Shown here: positions 14,654 through 26,193 of the stretch, piece by piece | Position numbering within the stretch: the stretch's first letter is position 1 | Layout: every line of letters begins with the position of its first letter | Source of the DNA: a virus | DNA length: 28,394 nucleotides | Reading direction: 5' to 3' (one strand) | Virus record (IMG/VR): IMGVR_UViG_3300008108_000407 | Span: 1-28,394 of that record | Position numbers and translations under genes: made by a program | Notes under the pieces: model-generated | What the model was told of the DNA's origin: nothing | Seen by the model: the letters and a program-made list of their open reading frames with translations, nothing else | The model's database searches: none

Positions 14654-14686
14654 GCGGTTGACAAGGCCGCTTTTTGGTACTATAAT
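14652..14686 (+). promoter_or_regulatory. Composite terminator-promoter P3
   Basis: AAGCGG (14652-14657) pairs with CCGCTT (14667-14672) followed by a T-run, an intrinsic terminator. Its 9-nt loop contains the TTGACA (14658-14663) of the next promoter; TATAAT is at 14681-14686, spacing 17. Confidence 0.75.
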
Positions 14687-14719
14687 TGCAGCATACGTTA
14701 ACAAATAGGAGCGAAGACT

Positions 14720-15418: not shown

Positions 15419-15443
15419 CACCCAGCCCAAACGGTAGTATACT
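15415..15443 (+). promoter_or_regulatory. Early promoter P4
   Basis: TTGACA (15415-15420), N17, TATACT (15438-15443). The stop TGA of the Gp88-like gene is within the -35. Confidence 0.85.
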
Positions 15444-15472
15444 TAAGGCTAGATAGTTAAAAAGGAGCGAAG

Positions 15473-15736
15473 ATGTATACAGTTGAAATCTATAAGCAGG
15501 ATGCTCGTACCAAAAAGGGCGAGCGATTGGTCTCTAAGACGGACTATGACACTGATAACCTCTCCATGCTTGAGCATACGGTCAAGCATACCTATAGAGC
15601 CAGTCAGGGTTTCCGCTATGAAATCCACGTGACTATGGTTGAAAAGACCAACATGATGGGTGGGGGCAAGTTCATGGAACGCTATGACACGCCCTACTAT
15701 TGTTCACCAAGTTCTGAATCTTACTGGAGCATGTAA
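15473..15736 (+). CDS. Conserved phage hypothetical protein, 87 residues
   Basis: MYTVEIYKQDARTKKGERLVSKTDYDTDN... has strand-rich ends and an RYDTPYYCS motif near the C-terminus. Similar proteins are familiar from T4-like aquatic phages, with no function assigned. SD AAGGAGCGAA, 1 nt before ATG. Its TAA is immediately followed by the next ATG. Confidence 0.75.
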   Translation: MYTVEIYKQDARTKKGERLVSKTDYDTDNLSMLEHTVKHTYRASQGFRYEIHVTMVEKTNMMGGGKFMERYDTPYYCSPSSESYWSM

Positions 15737-15964
15737 ATGAAGACTATCTTTGAAATCTTTCCTGGTATCGCCATCTACGACACTGAGCCTGTGAGTGTAC
15801 AGAATCCGTTCAGCGGAGAGAGTGCGACCCTAAGTCCTGAGGAAGTAGCGGTCTATGACTACATCAAGGGCTGTGAGCTTATGGAGGACTATGCGGGTGT
15901 CCGCAAGGGCCTAGACTGGTTCAGCCGTAAGAACCCCGAAGCTTACATGACTTTGCTGGACTAG
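15737..15964 (+). CDS. Hypothetical protein, 75 residues
   Basis: MKTIFEIFPGIAIYDTEPVSV... is an acidic protein with LSPEEVAVYDYIKG helices. The ATG directly follows the upstream stop and GGAGC sits in the previous gene's last codons, so it is probably co-translated from P4. A strong terminator follows. Confidence 0.7.
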   Translation: MKTIFEIFPGIAIYDTEPVSVQNPFSGESATLSPEEVAVYDYIKGCELMEDYAGVRKGLDWFSRKNPEAYMTLLD

Positions 15965-16061
15965 TCAACCTGGGTGTGGCTTTTTTGCCACACCCTTTCC
16001 CATGATCGTCGCCTAGATCCGACAGGCACCCTCCACGTCCACCCCCTCTAAGTTCGAACAT
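15921..16061 (-). CDS. Possible leaderless 46-residue Gly/Cys-rich peptide
   Basis: On the minus strand TATAAT is followed by 6 nt and ATG 16061, so +1 would be the A of the ATG. The frame (MFELRGGGRGGCLSDLGDDHG... ending KLRGSYG) runs through the terminator hairpin and 44 nt antisense to the 15737 gene. Three Cys. It may equally be a noncoding RNA; the GTTCGAAC/GGGGGTGGAC blocks also occur at copy B, where the frame gives a similar GGGHAGC. Confidence 0.3.
   Translation of the reverse strand: MFELRGGGRGGCLSDLGDDHGKGCGKKATPRLTSPAKSCKLRGSYG
15972..15998 (+). terminator. Strong intrinsic terminator
   Basis: GGGTGTGGC (15972-15980)/GCCACACCC (15987-15995), loop TTTTTT, followed by TTT. Confidence 0.75.
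16037..16059 (-). other. Shared G-rich/GTTCGAAC motif, copy A
   Basis: The minus strand reads GTTCGAAC (16052-16059), 5 nt, then GGGGGTGGAC (16037-16046), beginning 8 nt after a -10 box. See copy B at 13869-13895. Confidence 0.4.
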
Positions 16062-16067
16062 GTGTAT

Positions 16068-16096
16068 ATTATACGACATTTTGGGCGGCCCGTCAA
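16068..16096 (-). promoter_or_regulatory. Minus-strand early promoter inside the plus-strand battery
   Basis: The minus strand has TTGACG (16091-16096), N17 and TATAAT (16068-16073). It is divergent from P5. Confidence 0.65.
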
Positions 16097-16141
16097 CCAA
16101 AAGAAAGACCCTACAAGCTAGTCAACTATTATGTTTTTGGC

Positions 16142-16170
16142 TTGACATTTTGGACCCTCTGCGCTATAAT
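16142..16170 (+). promoter_or_regulatory. Early promoter P5
   Basis: TTGACA (16142-16147), N17, TATAAT (16165-16170); the spacer begins TTTTGGACC like P6. Confidence 0.85.
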
Positions 16171-16198
16171 AGCAGCATAAGTTAACAAAGGAGCCAAA

Positions 16199-16429
16199 AT
16201 GCAAACAAACTGCACAGCACTTGCTAAAATTACAATTAACAAAAAATTAAACACATATCGCATTGTGTTTAGTTTTGACAAACACAATCGTATTACAGTT
16301 AAAAATGCTGCGCTAGTAACAGGCGACATTTGCGGAATAGAAAACGAGAATGCTAGCATTTACATTACACAAGCTATACAAGCAGCAAAAGCTGTCCTAC
16401 GCACAAACAATGTGCAAATAGTTGACTAA
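16199..16429 (+). CDS. Hypothetical protein, 76 residues
   Basis: MQTNCTALAKITINKKLNTYRIVFSFD... predicts beta strands followed by a helix (ASIYITQAIQAAKAVL). SD AAAGGAGCCAAA. Codon choice here and up to about 17.2 kb (ACA, GCA, TGC, AAA-rich) differs from adjacent genes, suggesting a separately acquired block. No family is recognised. Confidence 0.65.
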   Translation: MQTNCTALAKITINKKLNTYRIVFSFDKHNRITVKNAALVTGDICGIENENASIYITQAIQAAKAVLRTNNVQIVD

Positions 16430-16443
16430 GCTGTAGGGTTATT

Positions 16444-16483
16444 AGCACAGCAAGTTGACATTTTGGACTTGCTGTGCTATAAT
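16444..16483 (+). promoter_or_regulatory. Early promoter P6 embedded in an 11-bp perfect hairpin
   Basis: Arms AGCACAGCAAG (16444-16454) and CTTGCTGTGCT (16468-16478) are perfectly complementary. The 13-nt loop holds the -35 TTGACA (16455-16460), and the 3' arm is the rest of the 17-nt spacer, ending in the first T of TATAAT (16478-16483). Confidence 0.8.
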
Positions 16484-16512
16484 TGTTTTTTAAGTAGTTA
16501 AAGGAGCGAAAG

Positions 16513-16836
16513 ATGCAAAAACTTACACTTGTGCGTTATGAGATTGAAACAGACTGTGTTATTAGCGAGTTTGCTTGCGACTTTACTGTAACGACTGCAG
16601 GCGACGGCTTGTGGGGCTGTGAAGCAGACAGAAAAATTAATGTTACAGGCGTTTGCATTGTGCATAATGTATTTGACGAAGAAGTGTATACACAAGTAAA
16701 TGTTACACACAACAGCACGTGGGACATTTACACAGACACGGGCTTTGAAAGTGCTATTAGCGAAGCTGTAGGCTTTGGTGTACGCTTTACAGAGCAGGGT
16801 ATGCAAGAAGACGAAATTGCTAGCATGGAGGTTTGA
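16513..16836 (+). CDS. Hypothetical beta-rich protein, 107 residues
   Basis: MQKLTLVRYEIETDCVISEF... has many short strands, five Cys and an acidic tail. SD AAGGAGCGAA. No family is recognised. It is followed closely by two small helical genes, apparently one operon from P6. Confidence 0.65.
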   Translation: MQKLTLVRYEIETDCVISEFACDFTVTTAGDGLWGCEADRKINVTGVCIVHNVFDEEVYTQVNVTHNSTWDIYTDTGFESAISEAVGFGVRFTEQGMQEDEIASMEV

Positions 16837-16838
16837 TA

Positions 16839-17015
16839 ATGCAGACTAGAGAACAGCTTTTTGACAAACTAGCAGAAGTTGAAGCTTTGCTAAAACAAGC
16901 TACTTGCGATGGCGAGGCATTTGAAAATAACTTAGGCGAGTATGACGACTGGGCAGCTGAACTAGCTAGCTGCTTGCGTACACTTACAGACAGTATAGAC
17001 TATTACGTGGATTAA
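16839..17015 (+). CDS. Small helical acidic protein, 58 residues
   Basis: MQTREQLFDKLAEVEALLKQA... is an amphipathic acidic helix pair. ATG 16839 follows the upstream TGA by 2 nt, with GGAGG 8 nt before; the TTG at 16833 is less likely. It resembles the next gene in size and opening (xDKLxExxALL), perhaps a duplication. Confidence 0.65.
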   Translation: MQTREQLFDKLAEVEALLKQATCDGEAFENNLGEYDDWAAELASCLRTLTDSIDYYVD

Positions 17016-17027
17016 GGAGCAAGTATA

Positions 17028-17204
17028 ATGTTAACAGCAAAACAAAAGGCAGACAAACTGCGCGAAGCTATTGCACTGCTAATGGACGTGGATGCACTAG
17101 TGCAAACAGCACTAGGTGACAGTGACGTATGCTATGATATGCACTGCAATATAGAGGAAATGATTGACGACTTGACAGCAGACGTAGAGGAGTTTGAAGG
17201 ATGA
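17028..17204 (+). CDS. Small helical acidic protein, 58 residues
   Basis: MLTAKQKADKLREAIALLMD... with ALGDSDVCYDMHCNIEEMIDDL is a helical protein of a type often seen in phages. SD AAGGAGCAA, 5 nt from ATG. Its TGA overlaps the next gene's ATG (ATGA). Function is unknown. Confidence 0.65.
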   Translation: MLTAKQKADKLREAIALLMDVDALVQTALGDSDVCYDMHCNIEEMIDDLTADVEEFEG

Positions 17205-17437
17205 CACGTACAGAAATAGACAATATACTACAGTGGGCGGGCACTGCCTGCCTGCTTACCATGTACGTGCTTATGTCATTCTTTCCACAGCTACATCCTT
17301 GGAACATTGTAGCGGGTGTATGCGGTGGAGTACTATATTTGGCGTGGACTATACGTGTGGCAAATAAGCCACAGATGCTGGTTAACGTTGTAGCAATAGC
17401 CATAGGGCTAGCAGGGATATACAAAGCCTGGGGTTGA
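17201..17437 (+). CDS. Three-helix membrane protein, SemiSWEET/PnuC-like
   Basis: This 78-residue protein has hydrophobic segments at about 10-28 (QWAGTACLLTMYVLMSFF), 34-51 (NIVAGVCGGVLYLAWTI) and 58-76 (QMLVNVVAIAIGLAGIYKA). The layout and the Trp/Asn-Pro pattern recall half-transporters of the SemiSWEET/PnuC superfamily, which dimerise to move small solutes. Substrate is unknown. It ends KAWG with its TGA inside the next -35 box. Confidence 0.65.
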   Translation: MTRTEIDNILQWAGTACLLTMYVLMSFFPQLHPWNIVAGVCGGVLYLAWTIRVANKPQMLVNVVAIAIGLAGIYKAWG

Positions 17438-17462
17438 CAGTTTGGACCCAAGGTGTTATACT
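17434..17462 (+). promoter_or_regulatory. Early promoter P7
   Basis: TTGACA (17434-17439), N17, TATACT (17457-17462). The -35 is flanked by CCTGGGGT/ACCCAAGG (8 bp with one mismatch). The upstream stop is inside the -35. Confidence 0.85.
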
Positions 17463-17492
17463 ATGGGTACAGTAAGGAATTAGGAGCGATAG

Positions 17493-17777
17493 ATGGAAAG
17501 AGGAACTTGCCCAGTTTGCAACGGAACTACCCGGGTGCCAGCTGGTGACAACAAATACAAACACGTCATTGCCGGCTACGACCGGGACACTGATACATTT
17601 GGTTGCACTAACTGCGGTGGACAGTATATGTGGAGCAACCCTAAAGGCGAAGTGCGCCTGAACAAGGACGGTGTGCCCTGCACCCACTCCTACACTGGAG
17701 CAACAGTAGGACGTTGTCTAACAGAATACACCTGCAAGCATTGTGGGGATAGGTACCAAATTGACAGCGGCGACTAA
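17493..17777 (+). CDS. Zinc-ribbon phage protein
   Basis: This 94-residue protein has three CxxC pairs (CPVCNG, CTNCGG, CKHCGD) plus a Cys-Thr-His, so it probably binds two zinc ions. The opening ERGTCPVCNGTTRVPAG and ending YQIDSGD match a type common in aquatic phages. Role is unknown, perhaps nucleic-acid or protein binding. SD AGGAGCGAT. Confidence 0.75.
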   Translation: MERGTCPVCNGTTRVPAGDNKYKHVIAGYDRDTDTFGCTNCGGQYMWSNPKGEVRLNKDGVPCTHSYTGATVGRCLTEYTCKHCGDRYQIDSGD

Positions 17778-17789
17778 AGGTGCTATACT
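17761..17789 (+). promoter_or_regulatory. Early promoter P8
   Basis: TTGACA (17761-17766), N17, TATACT (17784-17789). The whole -35 and part of the spacer code for the last residues of the zinc-ribbon protein. Confidence 0.85.
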
Positions 17790-17817
17790 ATAGGCTAAGT
17801 TAAACAAAAGGAGCGAA
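17784..17817 (+). repeat. Repeated leader module, copy 1
   Basis: The stretch from the -10 through the SD is almost identical to 22514-22547 and 24762-24795: TATACTATAGGC, TAAGTTAAACAAAAGG, AGC. Confidence 0.75.
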
Positions 17818-17819
17818 CT

Positions 17820-18080
17820 ATGTTTAGTAACCAAAACATCATTAAAACATATAGCGGAAAAATTGGCTGTATGTGCGGTTGTAAGGGCAAGTATAACTAC
17901 ACCCAACACGGCGCCCAAACCGACGGCCCAGGCTATCCTGTAAACGTCTCCGAACGCGGAGTGCGTATCATTGCTAGTCGTGTGCTTAACGATTCTCGTG
18001 TAGTGTTTGACGGTGATATGGCCTATGTCGAGGATCGTGTAGCAAACAAAATTCAAGTCGTCTACTTCAAAGGAGCCTAA
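17820..18080 (+). CDS. Conserved phage hypothetical protein with CxCxC motif
   Basis: The 86-residue protein has KTYSGKIGCMCGCKGKYNY, a short Cys motif that could bind metal, then strand/helix segments ending VVYFKGA. The type is familiar from phage genomes but uncharacterised. SD AAAAGGAGCGAA. Its own last codons form the SD of the next gene. Confidence 0.75.
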   Translation: MFSNQNIIKTYSGKIGCMCGCKGKYNYTQHGAQTDGPGYPVNVSERGVRIIASRVLNDSRVVFDGDMAYVEDRVANKIQVVYFKGA

Positions 18081-18081
18081 T

Positions 18082-18330
18082 ATGAAAGTCGCAGAACTTA
18101 TTGAATCCCTCAAGTATATGGATCAGGACGCTGAAGTCCACTTCAGCTATAACTACGGAGACCACTGGCGCACAGAAGTAGCCCCAGCCGTTAGCCGTGT
18201 TGACGAAGGCTATGTGGGTTACAGTGACTATCACCGCATGGACAAGATGCTTGACGAAGAGGACGTCTATCCAGACGAGGACTACGGTAACCCTAGCGAA
18301 AACGCAAGAAAGGTAGTGGTGTTAGCATGA
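18082..18330 (+). CDS. Conserved phage hypothetical protein, 82 residues
   Basis: MKVAELIESLKYMDQDAEVHFSYNYGDHW... with SDYHRMDK and an acidic run near the end is a recurrent phage protein type of unknown function. AAGGAGCC lies in the 3' end of the preceding gene. Its stop overlaps the next ATG. Confidence 0.75.
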   Translation: MKVAELIESLKYMDQDAEVHFSYNYGDHWRTEVAPAVSRVDEGYVGYSDYHRMDKMLDEEDVYPDEDYGNPSENARKVVVLA

Positions 18331-18575
18331 TCACAGCAGAAGCTCTCCAAGAGATGATTGCCTATAGGGCACCCACATTAACCAAACTGGCCAAGGAAGG
18401 CGGCTGGAAGGGGCCTGCGTTCAGCTCGTGCAAGTTCCTAGGCATCACCAACGGCGGCCAAATCTGCTACATGGGCGTCTTCCTATGTGAGGGTGGCACT
18501 GACAGTACTAAGGTATTCTTATCCCACAGAGGCGGTAGGGTTATTGCTGACGTACAGTTGACAGAGTGGGCTTAA
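18327..18575 (+). CDS. Hypothetical protein, 82 residues
   Basis: MITAEALQEMIAYRAPTLTKLAKEGGW... has a helical start and a beta-rich rest (ICYMGVFLCEGGTDSTKVFLSHRGGRV). It has no SD of its own; ATGA overlap indicates coupling. Its 3' end carries P9. Confidence 0.65.
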   Translation: MITAEALQEMIAYRAPTLTKLAKEGGWKGPAFSSCKFLGITNGGQICYMGVFLCEGGTDSTKVFLSHRGGRVIADVQLTEWA

Positions 18576-18586
18576 GGCACTATAAT
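18558..18586 (+). promoter_or_regulatory. Early promoter P9
   Basis: TTGACA (18558-18563), N17, TATAAT (18581-18586). The upstream stop codon is in the spacer. Confidence 0.85.
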
Positions 18587-18609
18587 ACAAACACTGAAAC
18601 AAACATTTA

Positions 18610-18620
18610 AGGAGCGACTC
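18610..18620 (+). promoter_or_regulatory. RBS complementary to the operon's own 3' hairpin
   Basis: AGGAGCGACTC, 2 nt before ATG 18623, is the exact complement of 19462-19472 at the end of the same operon. Confidence 0.7.
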
Positions 18621-18622
18621 AA

Positions 18623-19084
18623 ATGGCTACACGTTCAACTATTGCATTAGAATTTGCAGACGGCACAGTTCAACAAGTCTACTGTCACTGGGACGGTTAC
18701 TTGAGCAACAACGGAGTCCTGTTGCGCGATCACTACTCCAACCCATTCATCCTGCGTGACCTTATTGACTTGGGCGACATTAGCTCGCTTCGTCCTACTG
18801 TAGGCACCAAGCACGCCTTTAGCCAGTTTGAAACTAAAATGTCTAGCGAAGACTACGACAAGCTCTACGGCGAAATGACAACCTTTTACGGACGCGATCG
18901 CGGCGAAACAGGCACTGGCCCTAAGTCGTTCAAAGACTTTGAGGACTACAAAGAGAACTTCCAACACGAGGAATATGCTTATATCCTGCGTAAGGACGGC
19001 AACTGGTACGTCAAGCAACACAGCAAGGACTTCGAACTGTTGAACGAAGCGTTAGAAGTAGAATTAGCTGAGGAGGCAGCATGA
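18623..19084 (+). CDS. Conserved phage protein (MATRSTIA type)
   Basis: This 153-residue protein begins MATRSTIALEFADGTVQQVYCHWDGYL, an opening very common in phage hypothetical proteins, then SNNGVLLRDHY and an acidic C-terminal region. The function has not been described to my knowledge. It is first in a three-gene operon (18623-19462). The ending ELAEEAA overlaps the next start. Confidence 0.75.
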   Translation: MATRSTIALEFADGTVQQVYCHWDGYLSNNGVLLRDHYSNPFILRDLIDLGDISSLRPTVGTKHAFSQFETKMSSEDYDKLYGEMTTFYGRDRGETGTGPKSFKDFEDYKENFQHEEYAYILRKDGNWYVKQHSKDFELLNEALEVELAEEAA

Positions 19085-19293
19085 AAGTCCTAGTCCGTAC
19101 CCTACTAACACAAGAGCTTGAGGTTCCGGAAGGCTGGGACCGTTACGATGTACTGGACTTCCTTGCTGAACATCAGAGCTTCAGGACCGCGTTCCAAGGC
19201 ATTAGCAACGAGGATCAGACAGCCCGAGTTATTGACCTAGGTGTAGTAGAAGAAACTGTAGAACAACTTGGTGAGGAGTGTTTCGATGAGTAA
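19081..19293 (+). CDS. Hypothetical acidic protein, 70 residues
   Basis: MKVLVRTLLTQELEVPEGWDRYDVLDFLAEHQSF... is acidic, with one predicted strand and several helices. GAGGAGGC lies 4-5 nt before the ATG; it overlaps both neighbours, so it is coupled in the P9 operon. Function is unknown. Confidence 0.7.
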   Translation: MKVLVRTLLTQELEVPEGWDRYDVLDFLAEHQSFRTAFQGISNEDQTARVIDLGVVEETVEQLGEECFDE

Positions 19294-19462
19294 AATGAGT
19301 GAACTAGCATACGATATTGAGCAGCTGTACATTGAGGGCTATGGCCCTAAGAGTATCGCTGTCCAACTAGGCTGTCCTCTTGAACTAGTACATGACTGGA
19401 TCAAAGACAACGGCTGCAACGCCGCAGAGGACTTGAGTCCTTTTGAAACTATTAACAGCTAG
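19286..19462 (+). CDS. Small HTH-like protein, 58 residues
   Basis: ELAYDIEQLYIEGYGPKSIAVQLGCPLELVHDWIKDNG has the shape of a single helix-turn-helix of the sigma/transposase-like type (GYGPKSIAVQLGCPLELVHDWI). DNA binding is therefore likely. ATG 19286 follows GAGGAG by 8 nt. The stop codon lies inside the 3' hairpin discussed below. Confidence 0.7.
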   Translation: MSKMSELAYDIEQLYIEGYGPKSIAVQLGCPLELVHDWIKDNGCNAAEDLSPFETINS

Positions 19463-19475
19463 AGTCGCTCCTAGC
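19458..19475 (+). ncRNA. 3' UTR hairpin with anti-RBS loop
   Basis: GCTAG/CTAGC stem with loop AGTCGCTC. Bases 19462-19472 are the perfect reverse complement of the RBS at 18610-18620, heading the same operon. It may act as a cis or trans translational regulator. Confidence 0.5.
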
Positions 19476-19476
19476 A

Positions 19477-19507
19477 ACCCTGTGGGGCCCCAGGGTATTG
19501 GGCCCCA
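19477..19507 (+). terminator. GC-rich alternative hairpins
   Basis: TGGGGCCC (19483-19490)/GGGCCCCA (19500-19507) forms an 8-bp stem, mutually exclusive with ACCCTG/CAGGGT (19477-19482/19491-19496). There is no T-tract directly after, so it may be a weak terminator or an attenuator. Confidence 0.5.
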
Positions 19508-19546
19508 CCCCGCACTCGCCCTGTTGTTTTAGAGCCACAATCAGAG

Positions 19547-19575
19547 TTGACAGGTTGCCCAAACGATGCTATAAT
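19547..19575 (+). promoter_or_regulatory. Early promoter P10
   Basis: TTGACA (19547-19552), N17 containing GCCCAA, TATAAT (19570-19575). Confidence 0.85.
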
Positions 19576-19600
19576 ATACACATACTAAGGAGAGCGACAC

Positions 19601-19825
19601 ATGATCACTATCGAAGGTTTGTCCCGTAAGCAAAAGATGTTGGCAGACATTATTTGGGCTCTTGATAGCCAAGACCAAGTGCAGACATTTATCGCTAGCC
19701 TGCCACCTAAAGACCGCAGAGATGCACAGACTGTAACGCAGCTGATGATCCTAGCGTTTTTGGACGAAGTCACTGATACCACTGATGCCCGTAGGGTTAT
19801 TGCTGATCTAGTTGACAAGCGATAA
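19601..19825 (+). CDS. Hypothetical helical protein, 74 residues
   Basis: MITIEGLSRKQKMLADIIWALDSQDQVQTFIASLPPKDRRDAQTV... is helical throughout, ending ADLVDKR where GTTGAC encodes Val-Asp and serves as the next -35. SD AAGGAGAGCGAC. No family is recognised. Confidence 0.7.
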   Translation: MITIEGLSRKQKMLADIIWALDSQDQVQTFIASLPPKDRRDAQTVTQLMILAFLDEVTDTTDARRVIADLVDKR

Positions 19826-19840
19826 GAATGGCTATACAAT
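19812..19840 (+). promoter_or_regulatory. Early promoter P11
   Basis: TTGACA (19812-19817), N17, TACAAT (19835-19840); a weaker -10 than the others. Confidence 0.65.
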
Positions 19841-19870
19841 ACACATATACTGACACACAAGGAGCAACAG

Positions 19871-20134
19871 ATGAACATTAGCACACTAGAGCAATATGTA
19901 GATGGTATTAACCGTTGGGGTAAACTGTTTGGTAATGCACCTCTCAGCCTGCTCAACAGCAAGGATCGTCAGAAGATTGCGGATCGTATTGATGCAGACC
20001 TTAGCCCAGAGAATTTGACTTGCGACGGTGAGCTGCCTGCAAGCCAAGTCCGTGCCCGTCATCAAATGTTGACCCGTGCGGCACAGGAGTTGAAGAGCAT
20101 TGACCCTGCTGTAACCTTTTACGAATTTTCTTAA
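19871..20134 (+). CDS. Hypothetical helical protein, 87 residues
   Basis: MNISTLEQYVDGINRWGKLFG... with LNSKDRQKIADRIDADLSPENLTCDGELP and a C-terminal helix. Compact and basic/acidic balanced; no family is recognised. SD AAGGAGCAA. The YubB-like gene follows without its own promoter, so both probably share P11. Confidence 0.7.
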   Translation: MNISTLEQYVDGINRWGKLFGNAPLSLLNSKDRQKIADRIDADLSPENLTCDGELPASQVRARHQMLTRAAQELKSIDPAVTFYEFS

Positions 20135-20151
20135 ACACATAGGAGCGAACT

Positions 20152-20733
20152 ATGCCAAATTGGTGCAATAACTCAGTAGAACTGTATCACAAAGACCCTG
20201 CAATGATTGAGCGGGCTCGAACAGCGTTCAACGATGGACGCTTGCTAGATGAGTTCATTCCAGTGCCCAAAGACTTGCAGATTGTAGCAGGCCGAGTAGG
20301 TGACGACAACGATCCTAAACAGATTGAACTCAAAGAAGCAGAGACTCGTAATCTTGCCACACACGGTTATGCCACATGGTATGACTTCTGCGTCAACGAA
20401 TGGGGCACCAAGTGGGATGTGGGTTCAGATGGTAACCCTGCACAGGACATTCCAGGCGGATTGATGTTGGGCTTTGATTCAGCATGGAGCCCTCCTGTCA
20501 ATGCCTACGAGAAGCTCTTAGGCTTGGGCTTTGAGATCCGTGCAATGTATTACGAACCCGGTATGGCATTTGCTGGCATATGGGACAACGGTGACGATTA
20601 CTTCTACGAATACGGTGGATTAGACAGTGCAGGTATTGCAGAAGAACTGCCTGTGGAACTAGACGAGGCGTTTGGCATTAGTGAGTCAGCTGCTGAGTGG
20701 GAAGAAGAAAACAAAGAAGAGGAAGCAGAATGA
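20152..20733 (+). CDS. YubB/DUF1281-like protein
   Basis: This 193-residue protein opens MPNWCNNSVELYHKDPAMIERARTAF, the hallmark of the ferredoxin-like YubB (DUF1281/Api92-like) family found on plasmids and phages. It continues with WYDFCVNEWGTKWDVG, a typical internal block, and ends in an acidic tail. Function of the family is unknown. SD AGGAGCGAA. ATGA overlap with the next gene. Confidence 0.8.
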   Translation: MPNWCNNSVELYHKDPAMIERARTAFNDGRLLDEFIPVPKDLQIVAGRVGDDNDPKQIELKEAETRNLATHGYATWYDFCVNEWGTKWDVGSDGNPAQDIPGGLMLGFDSAWSPPVNAYEKLLGLGFEIRAMYYEPGMAFAGIWDNGDDYFYEYGGLDSAGIAEELPVELDEAFGISESAAEWEEENKEEEAE

Positions 20734-20876
20734 AAACCAATCGAGAACTAAACGAAGAGCATGACCGACGAGAACTTATGCGAGTGCGGCCTAAACAGCC
20801 TAACTACAACTATAAGCCCTTAGAAGAAGTAGTACGAAAGTGGGTAGAATTGAGCAAGAATCGTGAGCAAGATTGA
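20730..20876 (+). CDS. Hypothetical basic protein, 48 residues
   Basis: ATG 20730 overlaps the YubB-like TGA. The frame MKTNRELNEEHDRRELMRVR... ending LSKNREQD is complete and charged. The next gene starts 14 nt before its end. Tight coupling is the main support. Confidence 0.6.
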   Translation: MKTNRELNEEHDRRELMRVRPKQPNYNYKPLEEVVRKWVELSKNREQD

Positions 20877-21129
20877 GCTTTATATTAGACCACTAGTAGT
20901 TTTTGACGCCGCAAACAGAGAACACCGGCAATACTTCTTCAACTTCCTAAGAACAGGTGGTTGGAAAGGCTGTCCGTATCGTTGGGCCCTTGAGGACGAT
21001 CACGGATTTTTAATTGGGCAAATGCAGAGAGCTGTAAATGAGTATTATTTGGCGCGAGACTTTAAGAATGTGGCAAAAGCGCCACAGACTTTGGTTCGCC
21101 AAAAGAGGAAGAAAACGGTTGACAAGTAA
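20863..21129 (+). CDS. Conserved phage hypothetical protein, GTG start
   Basis: 88 residues; FNFLRTGGWKGCPYRWALEDDHGFLIGQMQRAVNEYYLARDF fits a small protein type frequent in T4-like aquatic phages (an FxRTGxWxxCP core). The GTG at 20863 is the only start that keeps the N-terminus; its SD is weak. The ending KKTVDK carries the next -35 as GTTGAC. Function is unknown. Confidence 0.65.
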   Translation: MSKIELYIRPLVVFDAANREHRQYFFNFLRTGGWKGCPYRWALEDDHGFLIGQMQRAVNEYYLARDFKNVAKAPQTLVRQKRKKTVDK

Positions 21130-21147
21130 CACAACCGAGCTTATAAT
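21116..21147 (+). promoter_or_regulatory. Early promoter P12 overlapping a 6-bp hairpin
   Basis: TTGACA (21119-21124), N17, TATAAT (21142-21147). CGGTTG (21116-21121)/CAACCG (21132-21137) pair around it. The stop codon of the upstream gene is in the loop. Confidence 0.8.
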
Positions 21148-21153
21148 AGAGAC

Positions 21154-21172
21154 ATGCTAAGGAAACTAGCAT
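21154..21172 (+). promoter_or_regulatory. 5'-terminal stem-loop in the 21206 leader
   Basis: ATGCTA/TAGCAT with loop AGGAAAC begins exactly where P12 would start transcription (7 nt after the -10). It fits an mRNA-stabilising 5' hairpin for a highly expressed gene. Confidence 0.45.
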
Positions 21173-21205
21173 AAACTTAAACCACACACAGAAAGAGGTA
21201 ATAAA

Positions 21206-21565
21206 ATGGCTACAGATAAACTTTTTAACGTCGTAGGCGTTTCTAAACTAAATGGCAACTATAAGGTGCGTTTCGCTACTGACCTTATGCGAATTAAGGT
21301 ATTGGCCAAGCACGGTCACGAAGACATCCGACTTGCTGAGTTGGACAAGGTCATGACCAAGTATGAAGCTGTTCAAGCTATCAAAGGCATGGACGACTTC
21401 CAAGATGCAGCTGCTCAGTCTGCTATCGCTGAGTACCTTGAGGAGAAAGCTCCTAAAGCAAAAGCTACCAAGGCTGGCCCCGTTGCTAAGGCCACTAAGG
21501 CACCTGCTAAGACTAAAGCTACTAAGGCTAAGGTCGAAGCTGATCTCGAAGACGCTCCGTTCTAA
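21206..21565 (+). CDS. Phage protein with histone-like Lys/Ala tail
   Basis: 119 residues: a globular N-terminal domain (MATDKLFNVVGVSKLNGNYKVRFATDLMRIKVLAKHG...) of a type known in phages, followed from about residue 78 by repeated K-A-T/P-K-A units resembling histone H1 tails, and ending DLEDAPF. The basic tail suggests nucleic-acid binding and the acidic end may recruit a partner, as in SSB-like proteins. Its leader is longer than the others, with SD AGAGGT rather than AGGAGCGAA. Confidence 0.7.
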   Translation: MATDKLFNVVGVSKLNGNYKVRFATDLMRIKVLAKHGHEDIRLAELDKVMTKYEAVQAIKGMDDFQDAAAQSAIAEYLEEKAPKAKATKAGPVAKATKAPAKTKATKAKVEADLEDAPF

Positions 21566-21568
21566 ACG

Positions 21569-21763
21569 ATGCGGTATGCACCATCGCTCAGTGAGGACTA
21601 TGGAATCAATAGGGTCGTAGTCCGTGATTTCAAATCGGTACCTCCTGGGCGAGTGCTGTGCGTTATCGCAAGAGAAAACCAGTACGAAGCAGAAGAGATC
21701 GCTGTAACAATATCAGATCTACTTAATACACTAGAAAACAACCATGAGCTGGACTCAGTATGA
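21569..21763 (+). CDS. Hypothetical protein, 64 residues
   Basis: MRYAPSLSEDYGINRVVVRDFKSVPPGRVLCVIARENQ... begins 3 nt after the histone-tail gene and overlaps the next by 20 nt. There is no SD, so it is presumably reinitiated. Beta strands, then an acidic helix. No family is recognised. Confidence 0.55.
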   Translation: MRYAPSLSEDYGINRVVVRDFKSVPPGRVLCVIARENQYEAEEIAVTISDLLNTLENNHELDSV

Positions 21764-21932
21764 AGTTTGGGCCGAGATTGACGGACACCAAGAACTTATC
21801 GAAACCACGCATTCCAAAAAAGAAGCAATAAGCCTAGCAAAGAAGGTATATAACGAGGGAGTTGACTTCGTCCAAGTGTTTGAAGAAACCAGTGACGGAG
21901 ACTACCTTGAAGTAGAAACTCTACGCAGGTAA
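21744..21932 (+). CDS. Hypothetical protein, 62 residues
   Basis: MSWTQYEVWAEIDGHQELIETTHSKKEAISLAKKVYNEGVDFVQVFEETSDGDYLEVETLRR predicts a strand-helix-strand fold. It ends 6 nt before the tRNA-Leu gene, so tRNAs may be processed from its transcript. Function is unknown. Confidence 0.65.
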   Translation: MSWTQYEVWAEIDGHQELIETTHSKKEAISLAKKVYNEGVDFVQVFEETSDGDYLEVETLRR

Positions 21933-21938
21933 TACCCA

Positions 21939-22025
21939 GCCCGGGTGGTGAAATAGGTAGACACAAGAGACTTAAAATCTCTCGCTCGAAAGGGCGTGCC
22001 GGTTCGATTCCGGCTCCGGGCACCA
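21939..22025 (+). tRNA. tRNA-Leu (anticodon TAA)
   Basis: The acceptor GCCCGGG pairs with TCCGGGC (one G-T wobble), followed by A and an encoded CCA. Anticodon stem AGAGA/TCTCT with loop CTTAAAA, long class II variable arm, and T-loop TTCGATT. It reads UUA/UUG. Confidence 0.9.
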
Positions 22026-22032
22026 AGTTTCA

Positions 22033-22110
<78 letters not shown>

Positions 22111-22115
22111 TACAT

Positions 22116-22192
22116 CACGCCTTAGCTCAGTTGGATAGAGCAACAGCCTTCTAAGCTGTGGGCCACTGGTTCGAATCCAGTAGGCGTGGCCA
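22116..22192 (+). tRNA. tRNA-Arg (anticodon TCT)
   Basis: CACGCCT pairs with AGGCGTG, then G and CCA. Anticodon stem ACAGC/GCTGT with loop CTTCTAA; T-arm ACTGG/CCAGT. It reads AGA/AGG. It lies 8 nt before the next promoter. Confidence 0.9.
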
Positions 22193-22200
22193 TTCTTTGG

Positions 22201-22229
22201 TTGACACACCTAGCCCAATCTGTTATAAT
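22201..22229 (+). promoter_or_regulatory. Early promoter P13
   Basis: TTGACA (22201-22206), N17 with CCTAGCCCAA, TATAAT (22224-22229). Confidence 0.85.
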
Positions 22230-22259
22230 TACGACATACTGAAACAACAGGAGCGCGAT

Positions 22260-22481
22260 ATGGGTTACAAGGTTCTAGCAGACAAGTTTGAGATGGACGA
22301 GATGCGTACCAAGTACGGGCCACGCAAGGGCCTAGAAGGTCCCTTCAACTTCAACGGCAGAGTGTTGTATTATGACAACAAAGAAGGTCAGTACTATGAC
22401 CCACGCACAGACTTCTATGTTGAGCAAGAAGAGATGGACATGGTCACCCAATCGTTGATGAACCGCTTCTTCCAGGATTAA
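22260..22481 (+). CDS. Conserved phage hypothetical protein, 73 residues
   Basis: MGYKVLADKFEMDEMRTKYGPRKGLEGPFNFNGRVLYYDNKEGQYYDPRTDFYVEQEE is a phage protein type with a characteristic MDEMRxKYGPRKGxEGPF block; function unknown. The frame opens further upstream inside the tRNA-Arg gene; ATG 22260 follows CAGGAGCGCGAT and P13. Confidence 0.75.
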   Translation: MGYKVLADKFEMDEMRTKYGPRKGLEGPFNFNGRVLYYDNKEGQYYDPRTDFYVEQEEMDMVTQSLMNRFFQD

Positions 22482-22490
22482 CCCTAGCGG

Positions 22491-22519
22491 TTGACAGATT
22501 GGACACTCTTTGCTATACT
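22491..22519 (+). promoter_or_regulatory. Early promoter P14
   Basis: TTGACA (22491-22496), N17 containing TTGGAC, TATACT (22514-22519), followed by leader module copy 2. Confidence 0.85.
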
Positions 22520-22547
22520 ATAGGCTAAGTTAAACAAAAGGAGCCAA
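22514..22547 (+). repeat. Repeated leader module, copy 2
   Basis: Near-identical to 17784-17817 and 24762-24795. Here the SD reads AAAGGAGCC. Confidence 0.75.
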
Positions 22548-22549
22548 CA

Positions 22550-22885
22550 ATGATGCTAGTAATCGACACGCAGTACATGGAGAACTATGGCGCCCACGAT
22601 TGGGACGGTGAAGGTGCTTGCCCCCAGTATTGGAAGATGAAGGGCGGCTCTTCCTACAAGGTACTAGGTGTGCCTGTGGGCATCGATCTCCAAGAGATCA
22701 TTGAGTTGGTTACTCCGCAGGTCGAGCGCAGCAACGACTATTGCCGGGAATACATCATTGGTTTCCATTGCGAAGCTGACGACTACCTCAGCCAGTTCGA
22801 GCGTGATCAGCTAGAGTGGGAAGGTGAGATCACCTTCAAAGAACCCATACTGGAATATGGGGATTTGGTTGACGCCACAGTCTAA
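22550..22885 (+). CDS. Conserved phage hypothetical protein, 111 residues
   Basis: MMLVIDTQYMENYGAHDWDGEGACPQYWKMKGGSSYKV is a familiar phage opening (VIDTQYxENYGAHDWDG). The rest is helical and ends YGDLVDATV, where GTTGAC encodes Val-Asp and forms the next -35. Function is unknown. Confidence 0.75.
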   Translation: MMLVIDTQYMENYGAHDWDGEGACPQYWKMKGGSSYKVLGVPVGIDLQEIIELVTPQVERSNDYCREYIIGFHCEADDYLSQFERDQLEWEGEITFKEPILEYGDLVDATV

Positions 22886-22897
22886 TGGCGTTATAAT
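22869..22897 (+). promoter_or_regulatory. Early promoter P15 with hairpin spacer
   Basis: TTGACG (22869-22874), N17, TATAAT (22892-22897). ACGCCA (22872-22877)/TGGCGT (22886-22891) form a perfect stem spanning the spacer. Confidence 0.85.
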
Positions 22898-22927
22898 TAA
22901 GACACATTAGCAAACAAGGAGCGAACC

Positions 22928-23251
22928 ATGCAAGCTAGAGAACTAAACACCCAAGAAGCCCCAACTAAATGGTTTGCAGCCATGGATGCTAGGATGCGTA
23001 ATCTAGCCAACAAGAGTCGCTACCCGCAGACAACCCAAATTCAAATTGATCGCATGAAGATGGTCATGAACATGGTCTACGCAGCCAAAGGTGTCTACGA
23101 AGCCTATGGCAAGAAGGGTGTGTCAATCAAGGTTGACGGTGCTGTTGTCAAGGACCGAAACAACCTACAGGCCCTAGAACAAGAGTGGAGCCTCAAAGGT
23201 TTCACCAAAAAGATTACCCCACAAGGTGTCATCTACCGGTTGACGGCCTAA
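22928..23251 (+). CDS. Hypothetical protein, 107 residues
   Basis: MQARELNTQEAPTKWFAAMDARMRNLANKSRYP... is helical and basic, with a short beta ending (KGFTKKITPQGVIYRLTA). SD AAGGAGCGAA. The last codons CGG TTG ACG GCC provide the next -35. No family is recognised. Confidence 0.7.
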   Translation: MQARELNTQEAPTKWFAAMDARMRNLANKSRYPQTTQIQIDRMKMVMNMVYAAKGVYEAYGKKGVSIKVDGAVVKDRNNLQALEQEWSLKGFTKKITPQGVIYRLTA

Positions 23252-23268
23252 CCAAAAGGCTGTATAAT
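23240..23268 (+). promoter_or_regulatory. Early promoter P16
   Basis: TTGACG (23240-23245), N17, TATAAT (23263-23268). GCCT/AGGC can pair in the spacer. Confidence 0.85.
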
Positions 23269-23296
23269 TAAGACATATTAACAAGGAGCGACCCAA

Positions 23297-23686
23297 ATGG
23301 CTAAATCTAAAGTAAACTACGACAACTTCGCCAGCTTTGACATCAACGAAGCTTGTGACTACTTTGACGTAGACAGCAGAGCACAGTGGAACAAGATTGG
23401 CAAGTTCATCGTGGCAGATGGACAAGACTATCACCAAGTCATGGAAGAGCACTTTGACTTTGAAGACACAGCAGATGGCGAGTATGCTGCCTTTGAAGCA
23501 GGCGTTAAGTATGCACTGACAAAGATGAACTTGGCACTAGAAGCCGCTGGCATCGACGTACAAGTCTGTGAAGTAGACCTAGTAGAGAGCATGGGATTTA
23601 TTATGGTGCGTTGTGATGACGAGCCCGAGGACTTCGTAAAGCGAGCTCTCAAGAAGCCCGTGATGATGGTTGACAGCTGGGTCTAA
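23297..23686 (+). CDS. Hypothetical acidic protein, 129 residues
   Basis: MAKSKVNYDNFASFDINEACDYFDVDSRAQWNKIG... is strongly acidic (FDFEDTADGEYAAFEAG), with a basic ending KRALKKPVMMVDSWV. SD AAGGAGCGAC. An acidic early protein might be a nucleic-acid mimic, but nothing specific is recognised. VDS near the end encodes the next -35. Confidence 0.7.
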   Translation: MAKSKVNYDNFASFDINEACDYFDVDSRAQWNKIGKFIVADGQDYHQVMEEHFDFEDTADGEYAAFEAGVKYALTKMNLALEAAGIDVQVCEVDLVESMGFIMVRCDDEPEDFVKRALKKPVMMVDSWV

Positions 23687-23698
23687 ATATCATATAAT
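23670..23698 (+). promoter_or_regulatory. Early promoter P17
   Basis: TTGACA (23670-23675), N17, TATAAT (23693-23698). Confidence 0.85.
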
Positions 23699-23725
23699 AT
23701 TGATACTGAAACAAAGGAGCGAACC

Positions 23726-23956
23726 ATGTTTACACTAGAATCTCGAGAGAATTACGATACCCGTCACGGTAGCCCATTTGATCGTGGCTCGGCTGACAGC
23801 TACTACCATCGTCCTCGTGATCCTCATTACTTCGTGGGCGACACCTACGGTTCTCTGCGTGTTGGCCGGGACCAAATGACCCCAAATGAAGTCCAAGCCT
23901 ACCTTGCAGGCTATCAGTACAACGAACAGTTTGGCGACAAGAAAGACTGGGGTTGA
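23726..23956 (+). CDS. Conserved phage hypothetical protein, 76 residues
   Basis: MFTLESRENYDTRHGSPFDRGSADSYYHRPRDPHYFVGDTYGS... and the ending AGYQYNEQFGDKKDWG match a small protein type widespread in phages, without known function. SD AAAGGAGCGAACC. Its TGA is in the following -35. Confidence 0.8.
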   Translation: MFTLESRENYDTRHGSPFDRGSADSYYHRPRDPHYFVGDTYGSLRVGRDQMTPNEVQAYLAGYQYNEQFGDKKDWG

Positions 23957-23981
23957 CACCCTAGCCCAAACCTGCTATACT
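23953..23981 (+). promoter_or_regulatory. Early promoter P18
   Basis: TTGACA (23953-23958), N17 with CCTAGCCCAAA, TATACT (23976-23981). The upstream TGA lies in the -35, and GGGT/ACCC flank it. Confidence 0.85.
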
Positions 23982-24011
23982 ATAGACACTTAGACATTAG
24001 GAGCGAAACAA

Positions 24012-24239
24012 ATGACTAACCTGCAAATCCGTATTGAAGAACTCTTGTTCGAAGGTCTCACTGAAGTTGAGATCGCTGAAAAGCTGGGCATCAGCATCGA
24101 AGAAGTAGAAGCCCAGATCACCATCATCGAAGAGCTGGACTATGCCTACGATGACGGGATGGACGGAGACTTTGAGTCTGCGATGGCCAGTGCCGGCTTT
24201 GGCACAGATGAAGATTATGGTTACTATGGAGATGAATAA
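24012..24239 (+). CDS. Small HTH-like acidic protein, 75 residues
   Basis: QIRIEELLFEGLTEVEIAEKLGISIEEVEAQITIIEEL has a helix-turn-helix reading (LTEVEIAEKLGISIEEVEAQI), followed by a very acidic tail (YAYDDGMDGDFES... DEDYGYYGDE). It could be a small transcription regulator with an acidic interaction tail. SD AGGAGCGAA. Confidence 0.7.
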   Translation: MTNLQIRIEELLFEGLTEVEIAEKLGISIEEVEAQITIIEELDYAYDDGMDGDFESAMASAGFGTDEDYGYYGDE

Positions 24240-24240
24240 C

Positions 24241-24429
24241 ATGAGACAAACCAGTGCATTCGCCCTGTTCTTTCTAGGTCTAGTCATGACCTTTGGTGCT
24301 GTGGGCAGCATCGAAACTACCCTAACCACAGAGGAACTCCTCGCAGGCTTGAGCTTGGCTCTAGTGGGCCTGGGCCTGATGGGTGTAGGAGTCCTGGGCC
24401 TGCGCTCTACAGTTGACAATCAGGACTAA
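24241..24429 (+). CDS. Small membrane protein, 62 residues
   Basis: MRQTSAFALFFLGLVMTFGAVGSIETTLTTEELLAGLSLALVGLGLMGVGVLGLRSTVDNQD has two membrane helices (5-22, 33-54) joined by an acidic loop. ATG 24241, 1 nt after the upstream stop, uses GGAGATG as SD; the longer in-frame start at 24142 is rejected. Similar small membrane proteins occur in phages. VDN encodes the next -35. Confidence 0.7.
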   Translation: MRQTSAFALFFLGLVMTFGAVGSIETTLTTEELLAGLSLALVGLGLMGVGVLGLRSTVDNQD

Positions 24430-24441
24430 AGGCCCTATAAT
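24413..24441 (+). promoter_or_regulatory. Early promoter P19
   Basis: TTGACA (24413-24418), N17, TATAAT (24436-24441). Confidence 0.85.
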
Positions 24442-24470
24442 AGAGATACTTAGACAACAAGGAGCGAACC

Positions 24471-24758
24471 GTGGATATCAAGCAAATCAACTCAGCCATC
24501 ATGTTTGGCACTTGGACCAACACCGAACTGACCAGCATGATCGATGCGATCAAGTGGGCTCGGACCAATCTCAGCAAGCAGATCAAACGTACAATCCGAG
24601 TAGGTGATAACGTAGAGTTCACCTCAACCAAACACAATCGTCAGGTGCGCGGCTTCGTTACCAAAGTGGCTGTTAAATATGTAACAGTAGACACGGGCAT
24701 GGGCCTGTGGCGGGTGCCTGCCAATATGTTGGCTGTGGTTGACAAAGAGCTGGCTTGA
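24471..24758 (+). CDS. Hypothetical protein with SH3/KOW-like C-terminus, GTG start
   Basis: 95 residues: a helical N-terminus (MFGTWTNTELTSMIDAIKWARTNL) then VGDNVEFTSTKHNRQVRGFVTKVAVKYVTVDT...WRVPANML, the pattern of a small SH3-like barrel (a basic loop after VGDxVxFxS). Nucleic-acid binding is plausible. GTG 24471 follows AAGGAGCGAACC. VDK near the end carries P20. Confidence 0.7.
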   Translation: MDIKQINSAIMFGTWTNTELTSMIDAIKWARTNLSKQIKRTIRVGDNVEFTSTKHNRQVRGFVTKVAVKYVTVDTGMGLWRVPANMLAVVDKELA

Positions 24759-24767
24759 GCTTATACT
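24739..24767 (+). promoter_or_regulatory. Early promoter P20
   Basis: TTGACA (24739-24744), N17, TATACT (24762-24767), then leader module copy 3. Confidence 0.85.
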
Positions 24768-24795
24768 ATAGGCTAAGTTAAACAAAAGGAGCGAA
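24762..24795 (+). repeat. Repeated leader module, copy 3
   Basis: Near-identical to 17784-17817 and 22514-22547. Confidence 0.75.
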
Positions 24796-24798
24796 CCT

Positions 24799-25143
24799 AT
24801 GCAAGTTACTACACAAGAGCAAGTCAACGCAATCGTTAAAGAAGCCCAGCAGGCAGCTTACGAAGCCGCAATGAAGTTCTTTTACGATCGGCTCAACGGC
24901 CAGGATCAATATGCCTGCGGCTTTGCTTGGACCAACATCTACGGTGTCAAGGGCAACACCAAGCTGGGCAAGATGCTCAAAGCCGCTGGCGTCAAGCAAG
25001 ACTACACCAAGGCGTTTCAGATCTGGAACCCCAGTGGTTTGGGCTGTCAGAACGTAGACACCAAAGAAGCGGGTGCAGAAGCTGCCGCAGAGGTGTTTCG
25101 CAAGTATGGCTTTGAAGCCTACGCTGGTAGCCGATTGGATTGA
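24799..25143 (+). CDS. Conserved phage hypothetical protein, 114 residues
   Basis: The block CGFAWTNIYGVKGNTKLGKMLKAAGVKQDYTKAFQIWNPSGLGCQNVDTKEAGAEAAAEVFRKYGFEAYAGSRLD is a type common in aquatic phages, with no function known to me. Mixed alpha/beta. SD AAAGGAGCGAACC. Its TGA is in the next -35. Confidence 0.8.
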   Translation: MQVTTQEQVNAIVKEAQQAAYEAAMKFFYDRLNGQDQYACGFAWTNIYGVKGNTKLGKMLKAAGVKQDYTKAFQIWNPSGLGCQNVDTKEAGAEAAAEVFRKYGFEAYAGSRLD

Positions 25144-25168
25144 CACTAAGCCCGCAAGGGCTTATAAT
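25140..25168 (+). promoter_or_regulatory. Early promoter P21 with terminator-like spacer
   Basis: TTGACA (25140-25145), N17, TATAAT (25163-25168). The spacer holds AAGCCC-GCAA-GGGCTT (25148-25163), a perfect 6-bp stem with a GNRA-type loop. Confidence 0.85.
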
Positions 25169-25196
25169 ATTAATTTTACACACAGGAGCGAATTAA

Positions 25197-26087
25197 ATGG
25201 CAAAGGTTGTTACCAGTCAAATGCTAATGAATGCTAGCGCAGACGTTAAGAGCTTGGAACAGGACAAGGACTTTCTCAAGGCCAAGGCCCAACAGCTGGC
25301 TTCAGAGTCTGATGAAGACATTATGACTCGACTCAAAGATCGCTTTGAGATTCTTGAAGACATGACTCGTGCCTGCAAGAAGGGCGATGTACGTGCTATG
25401 ATTGTTACTGGTCCCCCAGGCGTGGGCAAGAGCTTTGGCGTAGAGAAAGTACTTAGCAAGCATGATGTGTTTGCTGATGTAGCCAACGATTCAAAGCTGA
25501 AAAAGTACGAAGTAGTCAAGGGTGCGATGAGCGCCATTGGCTTGTACAAGAAGCTCTATGAGTTCTCAGATCGCAAGTGTATACTGGTGTTCGATGACTG
25601 CGACTCAGTGCTCCTAGATGACTTGAGCTTGAACATTCTCAAGGCAGCACTGGACAGTTCAAAGAAGCGTACTATCCATTGGAACACTGACAGCCGACTC
25701 CTGCGCCAAGAAGGTGTGCCCAACTCATTCGAGTTCAAAGGCGGTGCTATCTTTATCACCAACATCAAGTTTGATCACGTTAAGAGCAAGAAGCTTAAGG
25801 ATCACTTGGAAGCTATCGAGTCACGTTGCCACTACTTGGACTTGACCATTGACACTGATCGTGAGAAGCTGTTGCGTATTAAACAGGTAGTGCGTGATCA
25901 TGGCATGCTGGATGACTACAAGCTAGAGGATAGTGCCAAGGTAGAAGTAATTGACTTTATTGAACGCAACCAAAAGCGTATGCGTGAGCTGAGCTTGCGT
26001 ATGGTGCTTAAGGTAGCGGATATACGTGCTAGCATGCCTGCTAAGTGGCAAGCTGTAGCCGAAGTAACCTGTATGCGTAATAGATAA
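25197..26087 (+). CDS. AAA-family ATPase
   Basis: This 296-residue protein has Walker A GPPGVGKS (about residues 72-79), Walker B ILVFDDCD (about 129-136), and GGAIFITNIKF as sensor 1. The lid region follows, with helices near DFIERNQKRMRELSLRMVLKVADI. It is a single AAA module with a helical N-terminus, familiar in phages; such ATPases act as motors or clamp-loader-like remodellers, substrate unknown. SD AGGAGCGAAT matches the anti-RBS loops in its own 3' UTR. It is the last and largest gene of the battery. Confidence 0.85.
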   Translation: MAKVVTSQMLMNASADVKSLEQDKDFLKAKAQQLASESDEDIMTRLKDRFEILEDMTRACKKGDVRAMIVTGPPGVGKSFGVEKVLSKHDVFADVANDSKLKKYEVVKGAMSAIGLYKKLYEFSDRKCILVFDDCDSVLLDDLSLNILKAALDSSKKRTIHWNTDSRLLRQEGVPNSFEFKGGAIFITNIKFDHVKSKKLKDHLEAIESRCHYLDLTIDTDREKLLRIKQVVRDHGMLDDYKLEDSAKVEVIDFIERNQKRMRELSLRMVLKVADIRASMPAKWQAVAEVTCMRNR

Positions 26088-26193
26088 TAATAATAGGCAT
26101 ACAGGCTAGGTCACTGGACGATTCGCTCCCGGACTGTGACTTTGCTGTGCCCCAGGATATCCGATTCGCTCCCGGTATCCTGGGGTTTTTTTT
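26068..26193 (+). ncRNA. Structured 3' UTR / candidate small RNA with two anti-RBS loops
   Basis: Three hairpins in a row. H0: CCTGTATGC/GCATACAGG (26068-26076/26097-26105), enclosing the ATPase stop. H1: GTCAC/GTGAC (26110-26114/26136-26140). H2: CCCCAGGATA/TATCCTGGGG (26150-26159/26176-26185) followed by eight T, a strong intrinsic terminator. H1 and H2 share the identical CGATTCGCTCCCGG (26119-26132, 26162-26175), whose CG-closed loop ATTCGCTCC is the reverse complement of the GGAGCGAA(T) ribosome binding site. It could be released as a small RNA or act in cis. Confidence 0.6.

Follow-up and report, generated by a model that had tools for sequence, protein, structure and literature searches.

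Phage 3'-end hairpins displaying the complement of a shared ribosome-binding site: a candidate trans-acting anti-RBS RNA

The window analyzed here, a stretch of 28,394 nucleotides from the virus record IMGVR_UViG_3300008108_000407, carries behind an AAA ATPase gene two hairpins whose common loop is the exact complement of a ribosome-binding site (RBS) shared by many small genes of the same DNA. With a probability of about 0.6, we read these hairpins as parts of a trans-acting antisense (anti-RBS) RNA derived from 3' untranslated regions (3'UTRs), which would repress the gene cassettes bearing that RBS together. The phages that carry the loop form a large group of big freshwater-type phages. 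An earlier note on this DNA had proposed a regulatory RNA with a loop matching the shared RBS; the association of loop and RBS survived the checks described below, whereas neither a covariation of the two nor a tie to the ATPase was upheld. The carrier gene of the window's lineage and the elements that follow it are:

25197..26087, + strand: AAA ATPase (phrog_1250), the hairpin carrier gene in the window's lineage
26108..26142, + strand: anti-RBS hairpin 1, predicted fold, loop AUUCGCUCC at 26121-26129, kept in 81 of 81 ATPase homologues
26149..26186, + strand: anti-RBS hairpin 2, predicted fold, loop AUUCGCUCC at 26164-26172, also the stem of the intrinsic terminator
26186..26193, + strand: U-tract of the terminator (8 T), directly after hairpin 2

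The two hairpins with a common 14-mer and loop, as previously described, could both be located and folded in the window. The 14-mer CGATTCGCTCCCGG stands at 26119-26132 and again at 26162-26175, both loops read ATTCGCTCC as DNA, and the fold of positions 26060-26200 reached z = -4.5 against shuffled sequences. When the loop was compared with the exposed or single-stranded UCCC of anti-SD RNAs, AUUCGCUCC was found to have a C directly after it, and this third C of the UCCC belongs to the closing base pair. The putative RNA element forms the 3'-terminal part of an mRNA, with an intrinsic terminator as its end, in the window, in the relatives, where the longest T-run 3' of the last loop measures 7-9 in 69 of 81 loci, and in the gene C and A2 contexts too; the reading of the 3' hairpin as a terminator proved sound, hairpin 2 being a good one with its eight T. 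As judged from its sequence, the 8-U tail is compatible with Hfq binding. No family among the Rfam 15 covariance models reached its gathering threshold, and the top sense-strand match (ErsA, 15.3 bits against a threshold of 50, E 0.89) is at chance level. A reading on the antisense strand, with the loop showing GGAGCGAA as a decoy, was rejected because in all three gene contexts the hairpin lies 3' of a stop codon on the same strand, with the terminator on that strand as well.

The complement of the RBS, TTCGCTCC, occurs 13 times on both strands of the window, compared with 0.59 expected and a maximum of 4 in 100 shuffles. Two of these copies lie in the loops and the other 11 are GGAGCGAA on the + strand, each standing 1-4 nt 5' of a start codon, and in this way the exact complementarity claimed for 11 starts was confirmed at every one of them:

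14708..14715, + strand: GGAGCGAA RBS of gene 14720 (GP88-like)
15464..15471, + strand: GGAGCGAA RBS of gene 15473
16503..16510, + strand: GGAGCGAA RBS of gene 16513
17810..17817, + strand: GGAGCGAA RBS of gene 17820
20142..20149, + strand: GGAGCGAA RBS of gene 20152
22918..22925, + strand: GGAGCGAA RBS of gene 22928
23716..23723, + strand: GGAGCGAA RBS of gene 23726
24000..24007, + strand: GGAGCGAA RBS of gene 24012
24461..24468, + strand: GGAGCGAA RBS of gene 24471 (GTG start)
24788..24795, + strand: GGAGCGAA RBS of gene 24799
25185..25192, + strand: GGAGCGAA RBS of the ATPase gene 25197 itself

Matches at 7 of 8 bases, put at three more starts by the earlier note, are in fact found at six (14317, 16190, 17483, 18611, 22540, and 23285). 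The observation of loop and RBS is correct and far beyond chance. In relatives, the distance from GGAGCGAA to the ATG is bimodal, at 2 or 4 nt and less often 3. A protein with a GIY-YIG domain (14327-14650), whose RBS reads AGAGCGAA, heads the array of genes.

A feature absent from the earlier note is that almost every GGAGCGAA-type gene of the window has a near-perfect sigma-70 promoter of its own, and the block therefore forms an array of cassettes and not one operon:

14028..25168, + strand: cassette array with 21 TTGACA-17-TATAAT promoters, at most one mismatch per hexamer, the first at 14028-14056 and the last at 25140-25168

Twenty of these 21 promoters lead straight into a short leader and a gene start, most leaders spanning ~25-35 nt between the -10 box and the start codon; a weaker match at 17201, which lies inside an ORF, was left out of the count. 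A consensus scan of the window placed 12 perfect promoters on the + strand (12/12), about one promoter per small gene, and from the promoters it is plausible that the genes of the block are early. Across relatives, 907 unique promoter-leader cassettes were gathered, 56% of them with GGAGCGA and about 44% without it. GGAG starts with a promoter just upstream continue into CGA in 471 of 715 cases, compared with 50 of 546 for those without a promoter, and the code therefore belongs to promoter-proximal leaders and not to genes generally. In these cassettes the C after GGAG is nearly fixed, GGAGC carrying 1.7-2.0 bits (with the GGAG columns, unlike the C column, fixed by site selection) against 0-0.5 bits for the near-random promoter spacers. 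Within the array, three tRNA genes (Leu TAA, Met CAT, and Arg TCT) occupy positions 21939-22192; the tRNA-Met is up to 97.5% identical to that of Cupriavidus, hinting at a betaproteobacterial host, and in a similarity search of the window against plasmid and phage DNA the matches listed covered only tRNA genes.

The claim that the loop is kept and the stem is not was borne out in the relatives, in which the loop is nearly invariant and the stems vary with compensatory changes. Among 121 unique hairpins behind the ATPase, a set collected by the 8-mer itself, the information content amounts to 2.0 bits at G-A-UUCGCUCC-C, and the flanks drop to 0-0.4 bits within a few columns. A scan of the ATPase 3'UTRs in 81 loci, allowing for two mismatches, returned 122 ATTCGCTCC and six AATCGCTCC loops and nothing else. 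At the six outer stem positions of 35 unique first hairpins, all pairs (100%) are canonical, with 2-5 pair types per position, whereas a control with shuffled 3' letters gave 69% canonical over all tested pairs; inner pairs also change together (CCG/CGG, GUG/CAC, GCG/CGC). Covarying stems around an unchanging loop therefore indicate an RNA that is structured and selected for the sequence of its loop, in which the seed, as in 3'UTR-derived small RNAs (sRNAs), is conserved, single-stranded, and complementary to the start sites of other genes.

The RNA had also been tied to the 3'UTR of the ATPase, and this part of the proposal did not stand, as in relatives the loop also follows two further genes. 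In the closest loci, comprising the best 80 ATPase homologues in IMG/VR at an identity of at least 73% (81 loci with the window), one to three TTCGCTCC loops, usually two, lie at most 300 nt downstream of the ATPase in 81 of 81 cases. A sister group, whose ATPase is about 62-70% identical to that of the window, has one hairpin ~0.8 kb past the ATPase and behind a small gene B, with the exact loop at this place in 69 of the 71 sister-group loci with enough sequence. In the third context, the hairpin directly follows the stop codon of gene C (33 of 40 loci), which is homologous at 48% identity to a gene that the window also has:

21206..21565, + strand: gene C, whose sister-lineage homologues carry an anti-RBS hairpin right 3' of the stop codon; the window's copy has none

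In the contig G016, the two loops of the array stand behind gene C and gene B, and in the close relatives of the window both stand behind the ATPase. As judged from these arrangements, the loop is kept at about two copies per genome, though its position has moved among three 3'UTR contexts.

The distribution of loop and RBS across phages, set beforehand as a test, agreed with the proposal in that users of the RBS have the loop and loop-less phages lack the RBS code. In a 107 kb relative (G012), all 11 GGAGCGAA copies, which stand at starts, and both TTCGCTCC copies, which stand in the closing hairpins, fall within one 10.4 kb block; other contigs of 100-383 kb likewise have the motif clustered on the strand of the hairpins, immediately 5' of them. 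The loop sequence is not scattered through the genomes of the relatives. GGAG-ATG sites upstream of the hairpins continue into CGAA in 377 of 1109 cases versus 5 of 119 downstream on the same strand. Predicted pairing between loop and leader covers no more than about eight bases, which is the stretch of the loop that is single-stranded, because the base 5' of GGAG is A in 89%. GGAGCGAA-ATG was present in 184 of 191 loop-bearing loci, counts that overstate independent events because many of the loci are closely related. Four distant relatives with gene C and no loop have no GGAGCGAA-ATG, and PA5oct has neither loop nor RBS code; its ATPase, used as a query, found no relatives in IMG/VR. Among other loop-less phages, RcSimone-Hastad has one RBS match, fragment L347 has two, and XacN1, CM1, and DC31 contain GGAGCGAA, with both strands counted, only at about chance frequency. 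At the level of these sequence comparisons, the structure, the invariance of the loop, its complementarity to the RBS, and the fact that loop and RBS code occur together or are missing together are all established. No isolate phage with the element was found. A further phage fragment, L437, has GGAGTTGA before five starts without the complementary TCAACTCC in the locus, that is, a repeated RBS without a loop system.

The earlier suggestion that the pairing singles out phage cassettes from host mRNAs holds only in relative terms: one betaproteobacterial genome of 8.5 Mb contains 30 GGAGCGAA-ATG sites, compared with ~10 in a phage block of 12 kb. A scan of bacterial genomes with the 14-mer gave, among the matches listed, single matches in many phyla. 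Covariation of loop and RBS among relatives, formerly named as decisive, was looked for without success, as loop and RBS are both invariant. Among the loci collected, no different RBS 8-mer was accompanied by a convincing complementary hairpin, and IMG/VR scans with six single-substitution loops gave 5-39 matches each, which we consider chance level because none has two copies per locus or at least two matching RBS sites; in the loci with the six AATCGCTCC loops, the eighth RBS base is not shifted accordingly. Ten or more target sites per genome would make a coordinated change hard and can explain this lock between loop and RBS.

In the mechanism that we propose, the phage would mark ~20 small, individually promoted genes with one RBS, (A)GGAGCGAA, and hairpins displaying UUCGCUCC in a 9-nt loop would come from the 3' ends of one or two of the block's own transcripts. 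The resulting 3'UTR RNA, either the whole mRNA tail or a processed fragment, would end at the terminator near 26193 and, as transcripts build up, would pair with the leaders and block ribosome entry, perhaps triggering decay as well, with the whole cassette block being turned down together. The predicted duplex of loop and leader has -13.1 to -13.7 kcal/mol, compared with -5.2 to -8.8 for Shine-Dalgarno (SD) sequences without the CGA continuation. That this RNA is made and stable, pairs in vivo, represses, and times an early shut-off is what we infer. Since it would come from transcripts of the very block that it represses, a delayed negative feedback would result, suiting the shut-off of many strong promoters. 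A wider formulation, to which we give slightly less than an even chance, is that of a private translation code in which takeover genes are tagged with an identical extended RBS and a one-RNA-to-all trans switch silences the block, the anti-RBS hairpins being held at about two copies per genome and moved between 3'UTRs.

Points against a trans-acting RNA include the missing covariation of loop and RBS, the cassette leaders that lack GGAGCGA, and the fact that the window's carrier is itself a target. In a cis-acting alternative, each mRNA would have its own SD bound by the loops of its 3'UTR, as in icaR autoregulation, and the other genes would be bystanders. In the window, the ATPase RBS reads GGAGCGAAU and complements all nine loop bases, GGAGCGA is present in the own RBS of 57 of 79 close ATPase homologues, and icaR provides a direct precedent (PMC3868564); a 3'UTR motif matching the SD of the same mRNA is thus a feature of the window and these relatives and not a general property. 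The motif never occurs in the RBS of carrier gene C (0/39) or B (0/69), although the loop is equally conserved there, and cis pairing therefore cannot be the common function; it also leaves unexplained why other promoter-proximal cassettes share GGAGCGA. We regard the cis reading as distinctly unlikely, and trans action is favored because the motif is always absent from the leaders of carriers B and C themselves, evidence that covers these two gene families. Their exemption may be a gene-family trait, because the RBS of gene C departs from the motif in loop-less phages too, and in the window, where the carrier ATPase has the motif, feedback on itself is likely.

The hairpins could alternatively serve mainly as terminators or 3'-end stabilizers, with the loop bound by a phage or host protein and the RBS complementarity being secondary or coincidental. 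Known protein-binding hairpins also have conserved loops, and hairpin 2 does have the qualities of a terminator. Termination, however, needs no fixed loop, hairpin 1 and the A2 and gene C hairpins are not themselves the terminator, and loop and RBS code are jointly absent; moreover, the naive probability that the loop fits the dominant RBS 8-mer at 8/8 positions is ~2 in 65,000, or ~2 in 256 when the anti-SD CUCC is granted, and we consider this account unlikely. A relic of cassette duplication or optimal initiation could account for the shared RBS, the loop then having another role, such as positive regulation or the decoying of a factor that reads GGAGCGAA. A common leader module does exist, as leaders have further weakly conserved, ACTTA-like columns after the -10 box; yet the contrast between near-random spacers and the conserved GGAGC indicates that this conservation is selected and not recent, and a generic anti-SD pairs with AGGAG only, leaving CGAA unexplained, which makes such a relic improbable. 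Finally, the loop might target host 16S rRNA instead of phage mRNAs, as the 790-loop region of 16S rRNA reads GGAGCAAA or GGAGCGAA in many bacteria and so resembles the RBS motif. This seems very remote, for the site in Cupriavidus, suggested as a host relative by tRNA similarity only, is GGAGCAAA with one mismatch, and the phage RBS code would again go unexplained.

Repression of the cassettes by a trans-acting anti-RBS RNA would have mechanistic precedents, but no known system was found in which genes with a common RBS code are joined by loops that match it, and among the papers listed in literature searches for the motif letters none reported on phages of this kind. In the icaR mRNA of Staphylococcus aureus, a UCCCCUG motif of the 3'UTR pairs with the SD and blocks ribosome loading, in cis or possibly in trans (PMC3868564); the C-rich 3'UTR motif set against an SD resembles the phage element, whereas icaR concerns one gene, has no shared RBS code or duplication of the motif in dedicated hairpin loops, and differs from the carrier genes B and C of the relatives, which have no matching SD. 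OppZ and CarZ of Vibrio cholerae are autoregulatory 3'UTR-derived sRNAs that base-pair with their own transcript and inhibit translation (PMC7398697), similarly arising from the 3' end of a transcription unit, but in bacterial operons rather than among many separately promoted genes with an identical target site. The C-rich UCCC loops of RsaE and LhrC bind SDs, LhrC with several redundant sites per RNA (PMC4132741); these read the generic G-rich SD of chosen host genes, while the proposed phage pairing reaches into CGAA, an extension that is phage-specific and stands at many targets. The c4 antisense RNA of phages P1 and P7 likely displays in loops sequences complementary to the RBS region of ant (in PMC12197685), acting on the ant mRNA for immunity, whereas here a many-gene block would be the target. 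RegB and RegA, from phage T4, effect a post-transcriptional shut-off at the start regions of many phage genes, RegB by cutting GGAG (PMC3014915), and are alike in the proposed outcome only, being proteins where the agent here is a putative RNA. The pairing mechanism has precedents; what is new is an RBS code common to many genes and conserved, together with the loops that match it, across a lineage of phages. If true, this would be a widespread way for phages to govern an entire class of genes by means of a single RNA and a common RBS. Many strong genes with promoters of their own would be switched off by RNA alone, as an RNA counterpart of T4 RegB/RegA, and synthetic biology would gain an orthogonal repressor/RBS pair ready for use; the proposal already constitutes a testable claim on gene timing in jumbo phages, made from the letters of the DNA.

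Further features surround the hairpins. An imperfect inverted repeat, CCTGTATGC/GCATACAGG, at 26065-26108 of the window overlaps the ATPase stop codon just 5' of hairpin 1, and many relatives (L146, L153, L158, L175, and others) have a third small hairpin with a conserved CGCCAACAAGGCAATGG-like core between both anti-RBS hairpins. A conserved non-coding stretch 3' of the terminator (26262-26330), found at the same place in L129, L135, L138, and L140, reads GTTGC...GCAACAGCGCATGC, followed further on by AAAATCACC-like boxes, and might serve as an origin or as the promoter from which the converging genes are transcribed.
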